IMG/VR virus record: IMGVR_UViG_3300006793_003010
Span: 1-31,084 of that record
DNA: 31,084 nt
Reading direction: 5' to 3' (one strand)
From: a virus
The notes under the pieces were generated by a model. The model ran no database searches and was not told where the DNA came from. It saw only the letters and a list, made by a program, of their open reading frames with translations. Position 1 is the first letter of the stretch, and the number at the start of each line of letters is the position of its first letter. Position numbers and translations under genes: made by a program. Below, in pieces: positions 1-23,633 of the stretch.

Positions 1-98
1 ACTGCACCGACTGCATCTTCAACAATATCAACGGCACCGCCAACAACTTCCCCGACAAGATCGACTGCACCTTCAACGATATTAGCAACAAACGACAT
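1..98 (-). CDS. N-terminal fragment of an unknown phage protein (runs off the left edge)
   Basis: Only the first 32 codons are inside the window; the ATG is at 98-96. The visible peptide alternates Val/Ala/Gly with acidic residues (it begins MSFVANIVEGAVDLVGEVV) and looks like an amphipathic helix with a repeating VxGAVD pattern. It starts one base after the stop of the upstream 155-aa gene, so it belongs to the same operon. In related phages, N-termini of this kind often begin long virion or ejection proteins; that is inference from style and position only. Function unknown. Confidence 0.6.
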   Translation of the reverse strand, partial: MSFVANIVEGAVDLVGEVVGGAVDIVEDAVGA

Positions 99-568: not shown

Positions 569-1681
569 CTACACCTCCGCAGAAAATATTGCCGCAGAGT
601 ATATATTACCCATGCCAGCGGCTAGACTAAGGAACGGCCCTCTTGGGGCTGGCGCATCGTAGGACAGGAACACGTCATCGTCTTCAGTCCTATTGAGGAT
701 TTGTGGTACAATACCGCGTTTCATGTCATTTAGCAACAGCCCTGTCTCTAATAACCCACTAGCGCCCATCGTATGCCCTACTCGTTGTTTGTATGAGGTA
801 GCGACAAACTCTTTAAGACTACGCTCTAGCGCCGCTTTCTCTGCCGTATTGTTGACTGCAGTGCCTGTGCCGTGAGTCTTTACTACTGTTATATCTTCCT
901 TACGTACCCCCGCTACATGTAAGGAACCTTCAATTGCTTTAGAGTACCCCTCGCCATCGGGGCGTTGCCCAAGTGGGTTTGTGTTGTCTTCGGCAGACGT
1001 ATACGCTCCAAGAAACCTAGCTTCGGGGTTATTCAGCCCCACGTGGTCTTTTTCAAATATACATAGTGTAGCGCCTTGCCCCAAGAAGAACCCTTGGTTG
1101 GTGCTGTCAAAGGCAGAAGGCCGTATTTGATCTTCATCCTTGTACTGCAGGCTGGCTCCAGCTTCCCCGAAAAACTCTAGTGTAAGGTTGTTAACCGCAT
1201 CTTCTCCACTGAGCACGATAACACGGTCAAACCCAAAGTTGTTCATCAAGTTTTGAACATCCATCATAACTTTTAGGCTCGAAGCACAGGCGCTAGCGTC
1301 CGTAGATACATGGTCGTGCACGTGAAACATGCTTGCGATACGCCCCGCGTATATGTTTGTCAGCACAATAAACGGAACTTTGACCTTGTAGTGCAGCTCG
1401 GCGTCGGGGTTTTTGTCGTACCTGTTACTATTGCTCATCCAACCTTGGTTACCCGCAGCAAATATAAATCCTGTTTTACCCTTTACAGGGTTATCTTTAA
1501 CGTAATTCAACGCTTCAGGGGTAACTACAGTTTCTAGTAACGTGTGAGGAGGATACTTTAACCCAGACTTAGCACGTCTAAACGTAGACGGTATAATATG
1601 CGCGTGCTGCGGAAAGGCTATGTCAGGCACAAGAGTTGTGTCGGTGGTCGAAGTGCTGAAGAATTTAGATAAATATATCAT
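569..1681 (-). CDS. Beta-ketoacyl-ACP synthase (KAS I/II-type condensing enzyme), phage-encoded
   Basis: A thiolase-fold condensing enzyme that should catalyse decarboxylative Claisen condensation of an acyl-Cys intermediate with malonyl-ACP. All expected catalytic residues are visible: nucleophile Cys132 in TDASACASS, His270 in THGTGT, Lys298 in YKQRVGH, and His303 in GHTMGASG. Their spacing matches E. coli FabF (Cys163, His303, Lys335, His340, from memory). The C-terminal GFGGTN-type loop is changed to GMGNIY, putting Met where FabF has its gatekeeping Phe. At 370 aa it is about 40 residues shorter than FabF, mostly at the N-terminus. Its ATG overlaps the ACP stop (ATGA), so the two are translationally coupled. 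Family assignment is firm; whether it extends fatty acids, makes a special acyl chain or is repurposed is unknown. Confidence 0.93.
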   Translation of the reverse strand: MIYLSKFFSTSTTDTTLVPDIAFPQHAHIIPSTFRRAKSGLKYPPHTLLETVVTPEALNYVKDNPVKGKTGFIFAAGNQGWMSNSNRYDKNPDAELHYKVKVPFIVLTNIYAGRIASMFHVHDHVSTDASACASSLKVMMDVQNLMNNFGFDRVIVLSGEDAVNNLTLEFFGEAGASLQYKDEDQIRPSAFDSTNQGFFLGQGATLCIFEKDHVGLNNPEARFLGAYTSAEDNTNPLGQRPDGEGYSKAIEGSLHVAGVRKEDITVVKTHGTGTAVNNTAEKAALERSLKEFVATSYKQRVGHTMGASGLLETGLLLNDMKRGIVPQILNRTEDDDVFLSYDAPAPRGPFLSLAAGMGNIYSAAIFSAEV

Positions 1682-1965
1682 GCGACAGACTCCATAGCAG
1701 CTTCTACAGAATCAAAGTCTTTCTGTTTATTTTCCAGCATATAGTCTCGTACTTCTTGCAGGGAGCCTACAGGAATGTTGAAGTCTTCCGTTTCAGGTAC
1801 GCCGTATATGTCAGATATGAGCACCAGAGTGAGAGTTACATCTAGGCTATCCAGCCCAATGTCTTCTTCTTTAAGGGAAATATCTAGCGTTGTGGGTTTT
1901 GTGTAGTCGTCTAAGTGAAGTTTAGTTTCGCGGACGCAAGCGTCGAATAGTTCTAAAAAGTCCAT
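1678..1965 (-). CDS. Acyl carrier protein
   Basis: A 95-aa ACP. The phosphopantetheine site is Ser40 in LDSLD, preceded by an acidic, Gly-containing stretch (KEEDIG) and followed by the hydrophobic helix VTLTLVLISDIYGV, as in helix II of ACPs. It should carry acyl groups on a 4'-phosphopantetheine arm added by a host holo-ACP synthase; none is seen in this window. AGGTG sits about 7 nt before the ATG. It overlaps the downstream KAS by 4 nt, giving a two-gene ACP-KAS unit. The acidic C-terminal tail (residues 80-95) is a little longer than in housekeeping ACPs. A peptidyl carrier protein role is possible but less likely next to a KAS. Confidence 0.92.
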   Translation of the reverse strand: MDFLELFDACVRETKLHLDDYTKPTTLDISLKEEDIGLDSLDVTLTLVLISDIYGVPETEDFNIPVGSLQEVRDYMLENKQKDFDSVEAAMESVA

Positions 1966-1994: not shown

Positions 1995-2615
1995 TCATAC
2001 ATTACTTACAAAGGTCATTGCAACAGAAGCTGATGCCACCGCGGGCCTTGGAGATGCCGCTGCGTGTGCATGTAGCTCTACGTTAGTGTTGTCTGTAGAC
2101 CAGAACACTTCAACATAATCGCCAGCGACGAGATCAATAGACCCGTTCCAGTTAGCTATATCTTTCTTACCGTTACCACTTATAGTGTACTCGTGGTCGC
2201 TATAAGCTACATTCGTACCGTTCTTTTTTAACCATACAGAAACTGCTTTGGTTGAACTGTTTGTAGATTCTAGCTGCAAGGTGGTTTTTAAGTGATACAC
2301 TCCCGGGTTTGCGACTGTAAGCCTAGAGTTACTTACTACACTTACCGCGTTGTTGGCTCGTGTAGTATTAAATGTAATGGCATAACCTGTGTCAACAGCC
2401 GAAGCTGTTTGGTCTACAGTGCTATAGAACACTCCGTACGGCATATATAGAACTTTACCACCTACATCGGTGCTAAGTACCGTGTTTACTGAGCCAACAA
2501 ACCTATTGAAGAACAGGCGCAGCACGTTGCTATTCTGGTCCATAAAGGGCCGATCATAGGTTTCTGGCGCTAGGGGAAGCGCAGGAGGCGCTACCTTGTC
2601 AATCTCGTTAGGCAT
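1995..2615 (-). CDS. C1q/TNF-like jelly-roll fibre or appendage protein
   Basis: A 206-aa protein. Residues 1-55 look like a virion-anchoring segment and about 60-206 like a C1q-type beta jelly roll: a GYAITFNTT-type strand, PGVYHLKTTLQLES, VSVWLKKNGTNVAYSDH, and a C-terminal DYVEVFWSTDNTNVEL strand with an Ala-rich end. C1q-like heads are commonly trimeric and are frequent on marine phage fibres, so host-surface or glycan recognition is the likely role. Its ATG overlaps the stop of the gp10-like hub gene by one base (TAATG), which fits an appendage attached to that tail complex. Exact position on the virion is inference. Confidence 0.8.
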   Translation of the reverse strand: MPNEIDKVAPPALPLAPETYDRPFMDQNSNVLRLFFNRFVGSVNTVLSTDVGGKVLYMPYGVFYSTVDQTASAVDTGYAITFNTTRANNAVSVVSNSRLTVANPGVYHLKTTLQLESTNSSTKAVSVWLKKNGTNVAYSDHEYTISGNGKKDIANWNGSIDLVAGDYVEVFWSTDNTNVELHAHAAASPRPAVASASVAMTFVSNV

Positions 2616-4462
2616 TATCGCCTCCCGTCAGGGCGCATATCAATCCGAGGCGCTCCTAGCTGCCATGTAACACCTGCTTCTGTGGACTCTACTTTCATCG
2701 CAAGTTGTCTACCACGCACGCGCGTGTATATCTGCCCCGTATACTCTTCTACAGGTAGTACAGCCGTACGTGTTATAGCGCGAGTGTTACTGCCTCCTTC
2801 AGACGTAGGGTTGTTATACCCTGCACCAGAGTTAGCCAACGGTAACAACGTCATTGTTGCACTAGGTGAACCTGCAGTAGAACCATCAAACCTGATGTCT
2901 GGCAAAATACGCCATATAAATGCGAATTGATGGCCGTCTTCCAGATCAAACTCCGCGGAAGATACGAACGCGTGGATAGGTAGAGTTTCCTCCCCAGCGT
3001 TGTCATCTACACCCTGCTCATGGTTTACAAGGTTACTATCGTATGTAGCCGCAAGAGGGCTATCGCGTAGGCCAGAATCCAACCAAGCTGTACGAGACAT
3101 CGTCCCGTAGTACCAAACATCTTCTAAGTAGTTGTACACCACGTAACGATCCGACACTGTTTTACCCGTCGAGCAGTAGAACCACCATATTTCGTGATAG
3201 GATTCGTTGGTGCCAGAGACAATCTGGTCGTACTGTTGTGTGTTAAAGTCGTCAAAGATGAACTTACGTAAATCGCAGCGTAGAGGTTGCGTCCGCCCAT
3301 CATATTTGTAGAACTTATCTTTGCCCATCCAGTAAGCTACGCCGTTTGCGTAGGCTACAGCGTTCTGTCCAGCAATAGAGATGTTTTCTCCAACAAGCTG
3401 TGCGGACCAAACAACAGGCGCACCAACGTATTGCATGGCGTACAAAGCGGAATCGGTCCAGACCAGAACCTCCTGCCGCGCTTGTTTAGATGTAACGATC
3501 TCACTACCACGGGATAACGTGAGAAACCCAGCCTGTGACGTTGCAGACGGTGTCCAGTTTACCGCGCTGCCTTGGTCAGACCACCGCACCAGCATAGGGT
3601 TTACTATAGACGTGCCAAACTCGTTTGCGCCGAAGGCAAACACAAAACGATTTATGTCTGATATTTCTAGGCAATTCTGCGTTGTTGGTACGCCCGACGC
3701 GCCTGATAGCGTGCTTAGTTCTACCCCCCGGCTACTTATTCCTGAACTAGCTTCCCAATAATATATAGCCCCACCACGAGGACCGAAGATTAAATCTTCC
3801 CCAAAGTTGGATTGAGTCCAGAGTCGAATAGACTCCACAGAAGTTTCACCTACACCCCACGTACCGAACCCCCACGCGGATGCTCCCCAACCAGTAATAG
3901 GGATGGCAAACCCCGTACCGACATTGATCTGGTACGCTGCGGTGACTGTGCCGCCACCTGTTGCGCTAGAGCTTGCATTTGCTCCAGCGTCTATCGCATA
4001 CTCATTCACCGCTTCAGTAAAAGTTATTTCGTATTCACCATTTAGAGTAAGGCCGCCTACGGCGGTAGCGCCGCTGAAAGTAACAAAATCCCCGTCTTTA
4101 TACCCCCCAGCAGCGTCTGTAACCGTAACAATAGGCGAACCCGATACAGTCTCAAACGGATTTGTAAGCGTTTCTGTAGCGCGTAAGGGAGTTATATCGT
4201 TATACTCTCCACCGTTTTCTAGGTAAAACTTTAGGTTTGTTCCAACCCCAATCAGGTTTTGACTACCCAAGGTTACCCAGTTCCATAATGACCTACAAAT
4301 ACCTTGGAAAGTAGATGCAGATATACGTTGCCACCCGCCTATCTTTTCGGGCGTACCTTGCCTAAAACGAATTTTATCGCACTCGTACCAGCCACCTTCG
4401 CTCGTATAACGTGTGTTTTCGCGGTTCACACCAGCTTTTAAAAGTAGCTTCTTTAAAGGCAT
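2615..4462 (-). CDS. Tail hub / packaged-DNA stabilisation protein, P22 gp10-like
   Basis: A 615-aa beta-rich protein starting MPLKKLLLKAGVNRENTRY and ending in a conserved-looking GAPRIDMRPDGRR tail. Recurring blade-like units (LIGVGTNLKFYLENGG, NRFVFAFGANEFG, ALYAMQYVGAP, VAYWMGKDKFYKYDGRTQ) suggest a beta-propeller, as in the gp10 hub of P22-like short tails. An inserted Ig/bacterial-repeat-like segment lies around residues 100-175. In P22 this protein closes the portal channel and holds the fibres; the same role is inferred. GGAG lies about 9 nt before the ATG. It sits after the lysis genes rather than with the other neck genes, which is a somewhat unusual order. Confidence 0.75.
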   Translation of the reverse strand: MPLKKLLLKAGVNRENTRYTSEGGWYECDKIRFRQGTPEKIGGWQRISASTFQGICRSLWNWVTLGSQNLIGVGTNLKFYLENGGEYNDITPLRATETLTNPFETVSGSPIVTVTDAAGGYKDGDFVTFSGATAVGGLTLNGEYEITFTEAVNEYAIDAGANASSSATGGGTVTAAYQINVGTGFAIPITGWGASAWGFGTWGVGETSVESIRLWTQSNFGEDLIFGPRGGAIYYWEASSGISSRGVELSTLSGASGVPTTQNCLEISDINRFVFAFGANEFGTSIVNPMLVRWSDQGSAVNWTPSATSQAGFLTLSRGSEIVTSKQARQEVLVWTDSALYAMQYVGAPVVWSAQLVGENISIAGQNAVAYANGVAYWMGKDKFYKYDGRTQPLRCDLRKFIFDDFNTQQYDQIVSGTNESYHEIWWFYCSTGKTVSDRYVVYNYLEDVWYYGTMSRTAWLDSGLRDSPLAATYDSNLVNHEQGVDDNAGEETLPIHAFVSSAEFDLEDGHQFAFIWRILPDIRFDGSTAGSPSATMTLLPLANSGAGYNNPTSEGGSNTRAITRTAVLPVEEYTGQIYTRVRGRQLAMKVESTEAGVTWQLGAPRIDMRPDGRR

Positions 4463-15916: not shown

Positions 15917-16084
15917 TTACCCCATTGGCCCGCGAGCCATAAGACCCTTTGTAGCTGCACCCGTCCCACGGACTTTAATGCCTGTAGTCTTCACACCCTT
16001 CATGTCAGCTTTCGGCGCGCCCTTAACAGGTTGAACACCTTTAGCCTTGATGACCTTGGGTTCTTTCATATCGAATACTTTCAT
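15917..16084 (-). CDS. Small basic Lys/Gly-rich protein (55 aa)
   Basis: Encodes 55 residues with a good ribosome site (AGGAG, 7 nt before the ATG). The N-terminus is MKVFDMKEPKVIKAKGV and the C-terminus GIKVRGTGAATKGLMARGPM. The RGTGAATKG end is a motif I associate with small marine-phage proteins beside neck genes. It is strongly basic with no hydrophobic segment; a virion-associated nucleic-acid-binding role is plausible but unproven. It lies between the zinc-ribbon protein and the adaptor. Confidence 0.75.
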   Translation of the reverse strand: MKVFDMKEPKVIKAKGVQPVKGAPKADMKGVKTTGIKVRGTGAATKGLMARGPMG

Positions 16085-16094
16085 CTCATCACTC

Positions 16095-16460
16095 CTATGT
16101 TATACTTACGGTAACTTGGCCGATCTGGCCAGTTCCTACTAATGTGTTAGGCGCAAGCCCAAAAGGGTCTCTGCCGCCACCTACGGGATTCCAACCCCAT
16201 TGAATGCCCCGAGAACTGGTATCCCCCGAAGGACCAAGGCTTTGATCCACGCGTGGAGAACGAACAGCCTGCGGGTCATTGACAGGAAACTCTCCCAAAC
16301 GCAGTTGTGGTTGATCGGGATTCCAACATTCGGGGCAAGCCTTTACATTTGTATCTCTACCCTTAACAAAAAGGTTGCGTAGTTCCCGTAACTTATACTG
16401 AAACCCACACACATCGCAGAGCGCAATGACTTTTTGAGAAGATGCGTACTTGTTGCTCAT
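16095..16460 (-). CDS. Zinc-ribbon protein in the neck region
   Basis: A 121-aa protein with two CxxC knuckles: Cys15/Cys18 (LCDVCGF) and Cys42/Cys45 (ACPECW), giving a four-cysteine zinc ribbon in the first 50 residues. The rest is Pro/Gly-rich and probably extended. Its ATG overlaps the stop of the upstream 229-aa neck protein by one base. Zinc-ribbon neck proteins are common in marine phages next to adaptor genes; they may be structural rather than DNA-binding. Zinc binding is inferred from the cysteine pattern. Confidence 0.8.
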   Translation of the reverse strand: MSNKYASSQKVIALCDVCGFQYKLRELRNLFVKGRDTNVKACPECWNPDQPQLRLGEFPVNDPQAVRSPRVDQSLGPSGDTSSRGIQWGWNPVGGGRDPFGLAPNTLVGTGQIGQVTVSIT

Positions 16461-17149
16461 CAGCGAATCCTAGCTATTCTAGGAATAAGTTCGTACGAAG
16501 TTTTTTCTCTGTCTTCACCTGCGGCCAGTTCATACTGCTCATCGTATACTGCTTTTAGCATAGGAACACGATCAACCAACTCAGGCACCTTCATAGCAAT
16601 GTAATACGCCAGTCCAGCTACAAGGCAGGGGAAGAACCGGAAATTCATATCGGCGGTCTGTACACCAGACCCAGCATCCTCCACACGGCGCATACGCCAA
16701 TAATACAGTACGTAGTCGTCGTTGTTCGGTACAGGCCACACGTTTGCATGCGGTGCATCTCTCAACCGTTCTACATATAACTGAATTGGACGCCCTTGTG
16801 TTAATTTGTTAGGTATAGCCGCGTACGTACTTACGCTGATTCGATTTATAGTAAGATCAGATTGTGTGCTCGCGTTACCACTATTGGTACGTATTTGGTG
16901 TTCCAACACATCAATGGTATCGGCTGGTAGAGCGTACCTAGAAGTACCTTTTGTTAAGGTGATGGTGCCAGAATCAATAGTCCACATGTTGATGCCGCGG
17001 TTCTGCCACTCGATTGTCATCAAATTCATGGACCGTCTAGCTGTACGCAAGTCATAACCAGACCGCATCTCACGGCCCGCGCGTTCCCATGCTTCTTCCG
17101 CAATCTCGGTGAAGTCCATGTTAAACGCTGTAGTGCCTGATGTGGCCAT
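16460..17149 (-). CDS. Neck / tail accessory protein (gp4- or tail-tube-A-like)
   Basis: A 229-aa protein. The N-terminal half has a helix pair typical of neck proteins (MDFTEIAEEAWERAGREM, then SMNLMTIEWQNRGINMWTID); a beta segment follows (GTITLTKGTSRYALP, containing the ALPAD turn), and the C-terminus is helical (PCLVAGLAYYIAMK, PMLKAVYDEQYELA). The SMN-LM-EW-N-RGINMW pattern is shared with P22 gp4-type and T7 gp11-type proteins that connect portal and tail. It lies in the neck gene group. Which of the two families it belongs to needs structure-based comparison. Confidence 0.75.
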   Translation of the reverse strand: MATSGTTAFNMDFTEIAEEAWERAGREMRSGYDLRTARRSMNLMTIEWQNRGINMWTIDSGTITLTKGTSRYALPADTIDVLEHQIRTNSGNASTQSDLTINRISVSTYAAIPNKLTQGRPIQLYVERLRDAPHANVWPVPNNDDYVLYYWRMRRVEDAGSGVQTADMNFRFFPCLVAGLAYYIAMKVPELVDRVPMLKAVYDEQYELAAGEDREKTSYELIPRIARIR

Positions 17150-17158
17150 AACAATCTC

Positions 17159-17488
17159 CTAAGTGTACAACGTAGCTTTGCGTCTAGCTTCCATGACAGC
17201 CCCACACCCACGAGCAATATCACGTTTGCGGCGAGCTAATCCGCCACCTGCCAGCTTGACTGTAGCAGCTTTCGTGTTTTTCACTACAGTCTTACCTTTA
17301 GCACCTTCGCGCTTCTTTTTCTTCGCCGTAGTAGCACGTTCGCCCTTGCTCAGACTACTCGCTTTGCTTCGAGGCAAACACCGATCTGGATTTTTCTTGT
17401 CTTTAGAAGTGCCGCACTCGCCTTTGATTTTCCCATCGGTACCGATGCGAACCCACTTTTGATCTCGCCACTTCTTCAGCTCACCCAT
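17159..17488 (-). CDS. Basic Lys-rich small protein (109 aa), virion-associated candidate
   Basis: Starts MGELKKWRDQKWVRIGTDG, with two cysteines around an ECGTSKDKKNPDRCLP segment, then a very basic Lys/Arg-rich middle (TTAKKKKREGAKGKT) and a C-terminal GGLARRKRDIARG. Proteins with a 'KKW...KWV.IG...CG.SK...CLPxSKAxxLSKxER' layout recur in marine cyanophages and relatives (from memory). Its ATG overlaps the stop of the 55-aa gene (TAATG). The charge suggests binding to packaged DNA or RNA; the paired Cys may bind metal. Function unknown. Confidence 0.75.
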   Translation of the reverse strand: MGELKKWRDQKWVRIGTDGKIKGECGTSKDKKNPDRCLPRSKASSLSKGERATTAKKKKREGAKGKTVVKNTKAATVKLAGGGLARRKRDIARGCGAVMEARRKATLYT

Positions 17489-17655
17489 TACGATTTCGCC
17501 TTCTTGCCTTTGCTACCCTTAGCATAGTTCGGGTCTTTGCAATATTTAGACGCCGCCATATTTGCATACGCGGAAGGATATGTATCAAAAGTACGTTTAG
17601 CCCACGACTTACCTTTTGCGCATATCTTTCCGCCTGATTTGTAATACCTACGCAT
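17488..17655 (-). CDS. Small basic protein with YKSGG start (55 aa)
   Basis: Encodes 55 residues: MRRYYKSGGKICAKGKSW at the N-terminus, a helical TYPSAYANMAASKYCKD middle with a second cysteine, and a Lys-rich end (KGSKGKKAKS). It overlaps its neighbours on both sides by one base (TGATG upstream, TAATG downstream), which is strong evidence that it is translated. Its first nine residues nearly match those of the 103-aa protein at 18866-19177. I remember very similar peptides in marine phages but no function. Confidence 0.8.
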   Translation of the reverse strand: MRRYYKSGGKICAKGKSWAKRTFDTYPSAYANMAASKYCKDPNYAKGSKGKKAKS

Positions 17656-18083
17656 CAGCGCATCTTACAAACTTTGCCGCCACGAGCCATGCCGTAACCG
17701 CGAATCTTGCCGCCTTTTTTGTAGCCTTTCTTCATCATGCCGCCAGCTTTTTTCTTAATCACGCCGCGACCCATTAGAACGTCCTTCTGCGTGACTTTGC
17801 CATCGCCACTAAGATCAGGCATTTTACCGCCAGCTTTGTAGCCTTTCTTAGTCATGCCGCCAGCTTTGTAGCCTTTCTTAGTCATGCCGCCAGCCTTCAT
17901 CATAGGCATTGCTTCGTCTGCACGACGTTTTGCAGCGCGGTTGCCGCGTTCAATCGCTCCCGCTTCTTCAGGAGTAACTATAGTGTTGGGGCGTGCTTTA
18001 GGTCGTATAGACGACATAGGGGCGTTACTAGCCGCTTTCTTTTTCTTCATCATGCCCTTGGGGCGTGCTTTAGGTCTCATCAT
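17655..18083 (-). CDS. Basic repeat protein with KAGGMTKKGY repeats and an EF-hand-like loop
   Basis: About 142 aa from the ATG at 18083, chosen because AAGG lies 9 nt before it; an ATG three codons earlier has a poorly spaced site. The N-terminus is rich in Met, Lys, Arg and Pro. A ten-residue repeat (MTKKGYKAGG) occurs twice perfectly and degenerately later (MMKKGYKKGG). Between these is DLSGDGKVTQKD, an EF-hand-like 12-residue calcium loop with Asp in the last position. The end is GYGMARGGKVCKMR. It probably binds nucleic acid or other virion parts through its charge; calcium binding is a guess from the motif. Confidence 0.8.
   Translation of the reverse strand: MMRPKARPKGMMKKKKAASNAPMSSIRPKARPNTIVTPEEAGAIERGNRAAKRRADEAMPMMKAGGMTKKGYKAGGMTKKGYKAGGKMPDLSGDGKVTQKDVLMGRGVIKKKAGGMMKKGYKKGGKIRGYGMARGGKVCKMR
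17827..17886. repeat. Two perfect 30-bp tandem repeats inside the basic repeat protein gene
   Basis: Two identical 30-bp units lie side by side, and a third copy starts but diverges after about 8 bp. They encode the ten-residue MTKKGYKAGG repeat. Identity at every base, including silent positions, points to recent duplication or slippage and so to possible copy-number variation between strains. Confidence 0.9.
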
Positions 18084-18759
18084 TGTCGGCATCCTTATAT
18101 AGGTTGTTAAACACGCGGTCTGTATCCCAGACGTAATCTACGTCTTCTTTAGAACCGTACGAATGTTGATTTGGCTTGAAGTCTGGGGCACCTTGGCCTG
18201 TTTCAAACCACGCAGGGTGCGTAACGCGGACCCGGTTATTTGGTAGTGCTACTATGTTACCTGTATACTCTCCAGCATCTAGCAATTCAAGCACGTGGCT
18301 TTGCTTATGCTGCGCTGGGTCATCAGCCACTTCATTATCAGTGTAATCTACGGTAAAATAATACTTGGCGGGGTAAAACTCGCCATCTACTTTGGCTATC
18401 CACGGCGCAGGAGACGCGCGTTCTATCTTATATACACTGTGCGTATGAGACATGCAGTCCCAAGGCTGCGCTAGATAAGCAGGAAGCTCCGTGGGCCATT
18501 CTTCAAACGGAGTATCGGCAACAAGCGCCGTAAGTGGTAGACGTGCCCACATAGCCCCACCATGAACATTAGGTTCATCGGTATCATCAGACTCACATCC
18601 AGTGAATATCACTTGGAAGCTCAATGTCCGGTTAGGCATCGTGGTTACAGCTACAACCATGGCGTGTAAAAATTCTCCGTGGTAACCTTCTAAATTTTTC
18701 GTATACTCCCTCCGCACCCATGCTTTGAAATACGGAATACTACTTGTTAGGTAAGGCAT
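18070..18759 (-). CDS. Unknown conserved-type phage protein (229 aa)
   Basis: Starts MPYLTSSIPYFKAWVRREY. A beta-rich first half (FLHAMVVAVTTMPNRTLSFQ, VHGGAMWARLPLTALV) is followed by SHTHSVYKIERASPAPW and FYPAKYYFTVDYTDNE, then RVRVTHPAWFETG and an acidic C-terminus ending in DNDET. I do not recognise a family. No membrane segment, signal or enzyme motif stands out; one pattern with His and Asp around the middle (SHTHS) could bind metal but is not diagnostic. It sits among small basic virion-type genes, overlapping both neighbours, so a minor structural or assembly role is likely. Confidence 0.75.
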   Translation of the reverse strand: MPYLTSSIPYFKAWVRREYTKNLEGYHGEFLHAMVVAVTTMPNRTLSFQVIFTGCESDDTDEPNVHGGAMWARLPLTALVADTPFEEWPTELPAYLAQPWDCMSHTHSVYKIERASPAPWIAKVDGEFYPAKYYFTVDYTDNEVADDPAQHKQSHVLELLDAGEYTGNIVALPNNRVRVTHPAWFETGQGAPDFKPNQHSYGSKEDVDYVWDTDRVFNNLYKDADNDET

Positions 18760-18865
18760 TAAGTTCCTTTTTTCGTTTTTTCGCTGCCGCCTTCTTACGC
18801 TCTTGCGATAGTTTAGAAGGAGACGATTGAGTTTGTTTCTGCATCTGCGTACGACTAATAGCCAT
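18740..18865 (-). CDS. Tiny basic Lys-rich protein (41 aa)
   Basis: Encodes 41 residues starting MAISRTQMQKQTQSSPSKL, then a Lys/Ala/Arg-rich helix (ERKKAAAKKRKKEL) and LPNK. Its ATG follows immediately after the upstream TAG, and its end overlaps the next gene's start by 20 nt. Translation by reinitiation is likely. The composition matches the other basic proteins of this cluster. It could help condense DNA; no family is known to me. Confidence 0.65.
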   Translation of the reverse strand: MAISRTQMQKQTQSSPSKLSQERKKAAAKKRKKELNALPNK

Positions 18866-19177
18866 CTAACAATTCCACTTCCGTAAGCTCTTGTTGATAC
18901 GACTATCAGGATCGTTCGCGGTCTTTGCGCTTGTATTGCGCTTCTTCATACCCTTCATACGGGCGCAAAAAGACTTCCGACGGTTAGCCGCCTTGGAGCC
19001 TTTTTTAAGTTTACTGGGTTTAGTAGTCACCGCAGTCTTGAGCTTACTGCCGGGATTAGCTTTCCGATAGCTTGCAACGCCTTTAGCATTGAGGCCACCG
19101 GACTCGCTTTTACCCTCTTTGCGGGTCCACGCAGGAGACTTCTTAACGGAGCCGCCTGATTTGTAATAACTCCGCAT
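18866..19177 (-). CDS. Very basic protein with YKSGG start (103 aa, DUF6321-like)
   Basis: Starts MRSYYKSGGSVKKSPAWTRK and contains GKSESGGLNAKGVASYRKAN, then RRKSFCARMKGMKKR and a C-terminal INKSLRKWNC. The PAWTRKEGKS..GGLNAKG pattern matches, from memory, the DUF6321 family of marine phages. Charge is very positive and hydrophobic content low. Placed in a row of basic proteins just after the capsid gene, it is probably a virion-internal or DNA-associated protein. Its N-terminal nine residues are shared with the 55-aa protein at 17488-17655. Confidence 0.8.
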   Translation of the reverse strand: MRSYYKSGGSVKKSPAWTRKEGKSESGGLNAKGVASYRKANPGSKLKTAVTTKPSKLKKGSKAANRRKSFCARMKGMKKRNTSAKTANDPDSRINKSLRKWNC

Positions 19178-23068: not shown

Positions 23069-23446
23069 CTATGCCCTCTGAATGCCGCTAGGATCGGTTA
23101 CAACGGCTTCTACTGAGTCATCGTTCATCAAACGATACTCTACACCGCCAATGGTAAAGCGTGTTCCTGAGTTCATACGAAACATCACGAAGTCACCCTC
23201 TTTACACCAAGCTCCATCGGGAAAGCGGTCTTTGTCCGCATACGCCCCGTCGCCCATATCAACCACCAAGCCAATAATAGACATAATGTGGTCTTGAGTT
23301 TTGGCTGTTTCAGTTTTTAGAATAGACGTTCCTGCTACGGTCTCTTCCGGTTGTGGTAACGCAACAAGAAGACGGTAGCCAACGGGTTTTGGTAATTGTA
23401 GTTCTAGTTCAGCATCGCTGATTTTAACTGTTTCTTCAGTCATCAT
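23069..23446 (-). CDS. GroES/Cpn10-like co-chaperonin
   Basis: About 124-125 aa from the ATG pair at 23446/23443, preferred over an upstream in-frame start because GGAAA lies just before it; it overlaps the preceding gene by 8-11 nt. The Cpn10 layout is visible: PVGYRLLVALPQPEETVAG near the start, a mobile-loop equivalent (TSILKTETAKTQDHIMS), VVDMGDGAYADK, then EGDFVMFRMNSGTRFTIGG and a C-terminal VEYRLMNDDSVEAVV, which matches the GroES 'GDxVLFxxYxGxxxxxxGxEYLxxxxxDILAxV' end. Phage GroES analogues (such as T4 gp31) adjust host GroEL to fold large capsid proteins; its place in the head module supports this. It is somewhat longer than bacterial GroES. No GroEL is in the window. Confidence 0.88.
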   Translation of the reverse strand: MMTEETVKISDAELELQLPKPVGYRLLVALPQPEETVAGTSILKTETAKTQDHIMSIIGLVVDMGDGAYADKDRFPDGAWCKEGDFVMFRMNSGTRFTIGGVEYRLMNDDSVEAVVTDPSGIQRA

Positions 23447-23633
23447 CGTTTTCCATATAGTTTCGCGCAAGGTCTTCAACATACGATTTGCTGGCTTCGA
23501 GACCCCGAATTAAGCCAACAACTTCCCTATAACTCGCGTAATCTTTAGGCGACCCCGCGGTTAGGAAACTCTGTGCAGACGAGATGTCCCCGTCGATTTT
23601 ATCTTTCAGCACGTCAAAGACGGTTTTAGCCAT
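23436..23633 (-). CDS. Small helical head-module protein (65 aa)
   Basis: Starts MAKTVFDVLKDKIDGDISSA. The sequence predicts two helices around a DYASYREVVGLIRGLEASKS core and ends in acidic NDDD. It lies 6 nt after the portal gene and overlaps the GroES-like gene. Small helical proteins in this place are common in marine podoviruses and T4-like phages; function is unknown to me, but head assembly is likely. Confidence 0.8.
   Translation of the reverse strand: MAKTVFDVLKDKIDGDISSAQSFLTAGSPKDYASYREVVGLIRGLEASKSYVEDLARNYMENDDD

Follow-up and report, generated by a model that had tools for sequence, protein, structure and literature searches.

Acyl carrier protein and ketosynthase genes of many aquatic bacterial viruses lie beside genes for a transferase-shaped protein and a giant, probably injected protein, suggesting a custom fatty chain on one of the viral proteins

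When phages carry genes for fatty acid synthesis, these are usually classed as auxiliary metabolic genes with which host lipids are adjusted. Acyl carrier proteins (ACPs) and fabF of phages have been reported as such (PMC8224337, PMC11705849, PMC5463345, PMC10152775, PMC7029224, and PMC10653327), and the available portions of these reports describe a phage-encoded ACP, sometimes together with fabF, in Rhodobacteraceae prophages, Alteromonas phage R22Y, and Erythrobacter phage R6L. In the same portions, the prophage genes stand either as fabG-acpP-fabF, which is the bacterial order (PMC8224337), or as an ACP without a ketosynthase (KS), and no tie to a GNAT-like gene or to a virion protein is described. 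The open-licence full-text literature likewise yielded reports of phage ACP and fabF, but neither an ACP-KS-GNAT block nor a tie to a virion protein.

In the rhizobial NodF-NodE-NodA system, an adjoining ACP-KS pair is combined with an acyltransferase that uses acyl-ACP, and the remaining fatty acid enzymes come from the cell; deletion of nodE abolishes polyunsaturated chains and chains longer than C18 (PMC5080398). Besides, ApxIC, an ACP-dependent toxin-activating acyltransferase (RtxC), is GNAT-like without the CoA elements (PMC8339906). The viral locus described here resembles the former in its adjoining ACP-KS pair and candidate acyltransferase, and the HlyC/RtxC type in a predicted GNAT fold without the CoA elements and in a transferase gene directly upstream of a gene for a large, probably membrane-active protein. 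NodA, however, acylates a chitooligosaccharide, and the phage candidate transferase is not known to be its homologue; RtxC uses the host ACP, whereas the phage block has its own, and the likeness to RtxC is one of predicted fold and gene order.

We analyzed the whole of the linear IMG/VR virus record IMGVR_UViG_3300006793_003010 (31,084 bp; hereafter, the window), whose minus strand carries a late block with genes for the terminase large subunit, portal, major head protein, fiber proteins, and endolysin. The ACP-KS pair belongs to this structural block, where it is nested with a transferase-fold protein and associated with a single domain of a large virion-type protein (Table 1). Both ORFs, on the minus strand and overlapping by ATGA (TCAT on the plus strand), are exactly where the original prediction had put them, and its numbering of the active-site residues and its reading of GMGN in place of GFGG were right. 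It had placed the pair between a C1q-like fiber and further virion-type genes; the next gene, however, encodes the GNAT-fold member of the block, which had been missed. Only some relatives carry a small fiber or C1q-like gene, and no homologue of its product was found in loci L013, L014, and L033 to L036.

Table 1. Genes at and around the ACP-KS pair in the window
Feature	Position	Strand	Remarks
Giant amphipathic protein (start only), probably ejection (internal virion) protein	1..98	-	Gene cut by contig end
GNAT-fold protein (155 aa), candidate acyltransferase without canonical CoA P-loop	100..567	-	AF2 and Foldseek
Beta-ketoacyl-ACP synthase, KS (370 aa)	569..1681	-	Cys132, His270, Lys298, His303; gatekeeper loop AAGMGNIY
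Acyl carrier protein (95 aa)	1678..1965	-	Phosphopantetheine site Ser40 in GLDSLD
Small fiber or C1q/BclA-like protein, precedes block	1995..2615	-	Pfam BclA_C, E 0.003, below cut-off
Virion structural protein, nozzle or "phage stabilization" position, upstream block border	2615..4462	-	phrog_3287, 7e-66

The KS is a condensing enzyme of the beta-ketoacyl synthase superfamily, since it passed the curated Pfam cut-off of 20.8 bits for both ketoacyl-synt (PF00109; 2.5e-10, 40.8 bits) and Ketoacyl-synt_C (PF02801; 2.6e-18, 66.6 bits) and has the active-site set and the thiolase fold. Its catalytic residues, among which the first histidine sits in HGTGT, correspond to C163, H303, K335, and H340 of Escherichia coli FabF (mature numbering), and the gatekeeper aligns with F400. 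A structural comparison with FabF, proposed in the original prediction, gave a full-length match of the AF2 model (pLDDT 89.5) to FabF-type enzymes with a TM of about 0.8. Thus, the phage enzyme shares the thiolase fold, the Cys-His-His-Lys set, and the Pfam N and C domains with the KAS I/II enzymes FabB and FabF, but it is shorter, carries GMGNIY in place of GFGGTN, and lies far below the FabF equivalog cut-off. Assignment as a FabF (KAS II) equivalog was rejected on this score (TIGR03150, 107.7 bits versus a curated 493.75) and on the absence of GFGGTN and the Phe gatekeeper. The four catalytic residues and the GMGN loop were invariant among 20 diverse viral KSs, and it is very likely that the KS is active as an enzyme.

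The viral KS was only 18 to 22% identical to E. coli FabF and FabB, NodE, Streptomyces KS-alpha, and other cellular KSs. The phylogeny that had been suggested as a check placed the viral KSs in a single clade with full support, which a long branch divides from the cellular KSs sampled, NodE being among the latter; with a small cellular sample and long branches, this tree shows separateness, not origin. Together, the TIGR03150 score and the tree rule out a FabF-like host copy. The gatekeeper corresponding to FabF Phe400 was Met in all viral KSs, and GGTN was replaced by GNIY, GNTY, or GNVY. The changed loop, which the original prediction had read as a sign of altered substrate length or control, a putative effect, is no peculiarity of this phage: GMGN does not vary anywhere in the viral clade, and Met also occupies the FabF Phe400 position in two rhizobial KSs (NodE), whose genes each adjoin an ACP gene and have a NodA-family gene nearby. 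The Met gatekeeper is a common feature of NodE and the viral KS and a precedent, but it is not evidence of common descent, and the two enzymes differ in being about 20% identical, in their separate clades, and in the change from GGTN to GNIY in the phage.

The ACP gave no match as a single sequence against Pfam. A profile from 32 ACP relatives matched solved ACPs in the PDB at 9e-6, and DSLD, including the phosphopantetheine serine, was invariant in these relatives, just 7 of which matched Pfam PP-binding (best, 8e-4). We assign the product as an ACP because of the DSLD motif and the match of the relatives' profile to solved ACPs. The dN/dS values of the ACP (0.056 to 0.118) and the KS (0.035 to 0.07) were close to those of the nozzle gene (0.033 to 0.06), which points to purifying selection on the viral KS.

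An initial scan gave 37 viral KS relatives with identities as low as 51%, and searching for conserved motifs raised the number of IMG/VR stretches encoding KS relatives to at least 562. In each of the 231 KS loci that extended far enough upstream, the ACP gene adjoined the KS gene, and the GNAT-like 155-aa gene did so in 207 of the 208 with room downstream, both being counts of loci, not of independent viruses, since many are overlapping fetches of the same contigs. The KS is patchy among phages with the nozzle gene (15/58) and internally deleted in one contig (L171), as might be expected if host genes without a role had been captured at random; the number of relatives, the fixed neighbors, and the low dN/dS contradict such transient cargo, the chance of which we regard as next to negligible. 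Degraded copies alone or a recent random capture had been named as outcomes that would speak against the original prediction, and neither was found (dN/dS, about 0.05); its central claim of an intact ACP-KS pair in a late-gene block is borne out by the conservation of the pair and the invariance of its active-site residues. The ACP-KS-GNAT block is real, widespread, and conserved, and it is more specific than was first thought.

Among annotated phage records (INPHARED), only MW202545, an uncultured genome and the nearest annotated record, carries the whole block; its KS is named 3-oxoacyl-ACP synthase, its ACP and third gene are hypothetical, and its homologue of the nozzle gene is annotated as a phage stabilization protein. 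Other INPHARED matches to the KS were weak, covering the query only in part and with no more than 30% identity; they look like bacterial FabF and were set aside. The KS motif scan over 84,980 prokaryote genomes gave one match, on a contig of a Balneolaceae metagenome-assembled genome (L111), which holds the ACP, the KS, and the 155-aa gene in unchanged order and may be a binned virus or a prophage.

The third gene of the block had no Pfam match (E 0.1) and no PHROG match. An AF2 model from an alignment of 31 relatives (pLDDT 92.3, pTM 0.86) showed the GNAT order of elements, and the best 50 PDB matches in Foldseek were nearly all GNATs, with probabilities up to 1.00 but an E value of only about 1e-3 and a TM of about 0.5. 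On the predicted model, the product has a GNAT fold. Of the 31 members, a single one has the CoA-binding loop motif [QR]xxGx[GA], and there the motif forms part of strand beta4 instead of the loop that follows the strand. The slot between the nozzle gene and the genes for internal or ejection-type proteins is occupied by gene 13 in T7 and by a Pfam-recognized GNAT gene (gp35) in the isolated roseophage CRP-902, but neither product has detectable sequence similarity to the GNAT-fold protein of the window, and no ACP or KS of the phage family was detected in those phages. Membership in the T7 gp13 family (PF11090) was rejected, as there was no Pfam match and the hhalign probability was 0.2%.

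The shared slot nevertheless raises the reading that the GNAT-fold protein lacks catalytic activity and serves the giant protein as an assembly chaperone, similar to T7 gp13, which Pfam names a probable scaffold protein, and that the ACP or the ACP-KS pair is a structural cofactor or unrelated. The lost CoA loop and the existence of phages with the GNAT-like gene alone fit this reading; the invariant catalytic residues of the KS, the purifying selection, the invariant phosphopantetheine serine, and the lack of sequence similarity to gp13 argue against it, and we consider it improbable.

The association of the three genes was also evident in a sample anchored on the nozzle gene, which avoids selecting for the module. 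Among 58 contigs that continued for 3.5 kb or more downstream of this gene, 27 had none of the three genes, 11 had the GNAT-like gene only, 5 had ACP and GNAT, and 15 had ACP, KS, and GNAT; no other combination occurred. If the genes were independent, the chance that every one of the 20 ACP loci also belongs to the 31 GNAT-like loci would be 5e-8; relatedness raises this figure, and co-inheritance of neighboring genes inflates the co-occurrence of ACP, KS, and the GNAT-like gene. The phages with only the GNAT-like gene imply that its product is of use even where the phage encodes no ACP, and host acyl-ACP may then be its partner. Only a remnant of the KS is left in L171 (L171:2150-2300), with the ACP and the GNAT-like gene intact, which reads as a loss of the KS alone, albeit in one contig where an assembly error is possible. 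It is likely that the ACP-KS pair shares a function with the GNAT-like protein.

In two related contigs (L032/L258 and L259), whose KSs are 88% alike, the GNAT-like gene is missing and ACP-KS lies in a replication-type region beside helicase-like and nuclease-like genes. The pair therefore has at least one other context, which speaks against a role specific to virions. Expression only late in infection, proposed in the original prediction, is weakened by these two contigs. They belong to another phage group (L032:3267-4680 and L259:5715-7128), and in both a small sigma-factor-like gene follows ACP-KS with an ATGA overlap.

This second context speaks for an auxiliary metabolic role, in which ACP-KS raises or redirects host fatty acid elongation, with effects on membrane composition or lysis, and the GNAT-like gene is a mere fixed neighbor. 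Earlier readings of phage ACP and fabF in that sense (PMC8224337, PMC11705849, and PMC10653327) also favor it. The best-sampled form of ACP-KS, however, lies inside the structural block; the ACP occurs without the KS, yet the GNAT-like gene is always there (20/20 ACP loci in the nozzle-anchored sample); and the KS clade stands well apart from the FabF and FabB sampled (about 20% identity), unlike a copied host enzyme. We thus judge a purely metabolic role rather unlikely.

Where the GNAT-like gene is present, it is followed by the gene for a giant protein whose N-terminal domain is amphipathic and rich in Ala, Val, and Gly. The window holds only the first 98 bp of this gene, whose translation, MSFVANIVEGAVDLVGEVV..., is the start of a 1,842-aa product in L041. 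With a profile trained on KS loci only and tested on the nozzle-anchored loci, the giant protein began with this domain in each of the 16 loci that have the GNAT-like gene and no KS (E 1e-16 or better); counting the KS loci as well, the domain accompanied the GNAT-like gene in 31 of 31 cases. Where that gene was missing (27 loci), the domain was absent (23), matched weakly in the interior (3), or was present in full (1; L397). Since the domain and the GNAT-like gene go together, this domain is the best candidate acceptor or partner. From its position and composition, the giant protein probably has an ejection role.

No invariant or conserved acceptor lysine was seen in the N-terminal domain. 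Residue 2 of the giant protein was Ser, Gly, Ala, Pro, or Thr in 168/168 sequences, a weak hint of N-terminal acylation, as the background was already high (22/27 in loci without the GNAT-like gene). Some loci without the GNAT-like gene, including L303, L324, L353, and L381, have a giant protein after the fiber with a wholly different N-terminus, which suggests that the ejection-type protein has exchangeable N-terminal domains. L397, which has no ACP, KS, or GNAT-like gene, has a gene of PF10118 ("predicted metal-dependent hydrolase"; L397:2279-2971; 5e-34) in the slot that precedes the giant protein; the 167-aa gene that comes next in the slot may correspond to the GNAT-like gene in a divergent form.

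An ACP and a GNAT protein make up the minimal set for LuxI-type or N-acyl amino acid products. The GNAT-fold protein might accordingly use acyl-ACP during infection to produce a signal or an inhibitor in the form of a diffusible acyl compound, like LuxI-type or N-acyl amino acid synthases, and the GNAT-related acyl-homoserine lactone synthase BjaI (5w8c) did appear in the Foldseek list, at rank 50. The place among structural genes and the strict tie to one structural-protein domain point instead to a protein partner, and neither an exporter nor extra enzymes were seen in the block, which makes a small-molecule route highly improbable.

Our preferred reading, which we hold tentatively and at not quite an even chance, is that the ACP and the KS, together with the 155-aa protein of GNAT fold, make up a single module dedicated to acyl supply and transfer in a group of aquatic podovirus-like phages, with the N-terminal domain of the giant protein as the likeliest acceptor. 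The phage ACP would be converted to holo-ACP by a host phosphopantetheinyl transferase, host FabD, reductases, and dehydratase would serve the elongation cycle, and the phage KS would pick the chain built on the phage ACP, as NodE does. The GNAT-fold protein would then pass the chain from the ACP to its acceptor, most likely the amphipathic domain of the giant putative DNA-ejection protein encoded next, and the acylated protein might enter the host membrane more readily. We infer the catalytic activity, acyl-ACP as the donor, the acceptor, and the ejection role. No phosphopantetheinyl transferase, FabG-type, or FabD-type gene was found in 21 phage records including the window, several of which are fragments; the host would therefore supply holo-ACP formation, malonyl-ACP, and the reductive steps, and a complete phage-encoded pathway was rejected on the same grounds.

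If one outcome has to be named, acylation of the ejection-type protein is the most probable, with a chance somewhat below one half. It is possible, but doubtful, that the phage kit lipidates its own ejection protein so that a chosen acyl chain on the N-terminal domain serves as a fatty anchor into the host membrane. The evidence favors the direction of the earlier suggestion that a special acyl chain is prepared for a virion product, of which the transfer and the substrate are putative. If this is true, phage-encoded enzymes carry out lipid modification on a probable virion protein, PHROG families 35856 and 14581, now marked unknown, gain a concrete function, and fabF counts in marine viromes would have to be interpreted differently. 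It would also offer a direct test of how the ejection proteins of tailed phages enter membranes.

Elsewhere in the window, small Lys/Gly-rich basic proteins, one of them with KAGGMTKKGY repeats, are clustered between the head-side and fiber-side genes (15917-19177). The head-gene region includes a GroES-like co-chaperonin gene (23069-23482; phrog_3188, 1e-11), and such a co-chaperonin is also annotated in HTVC027P, CRP-902, and MW202545.
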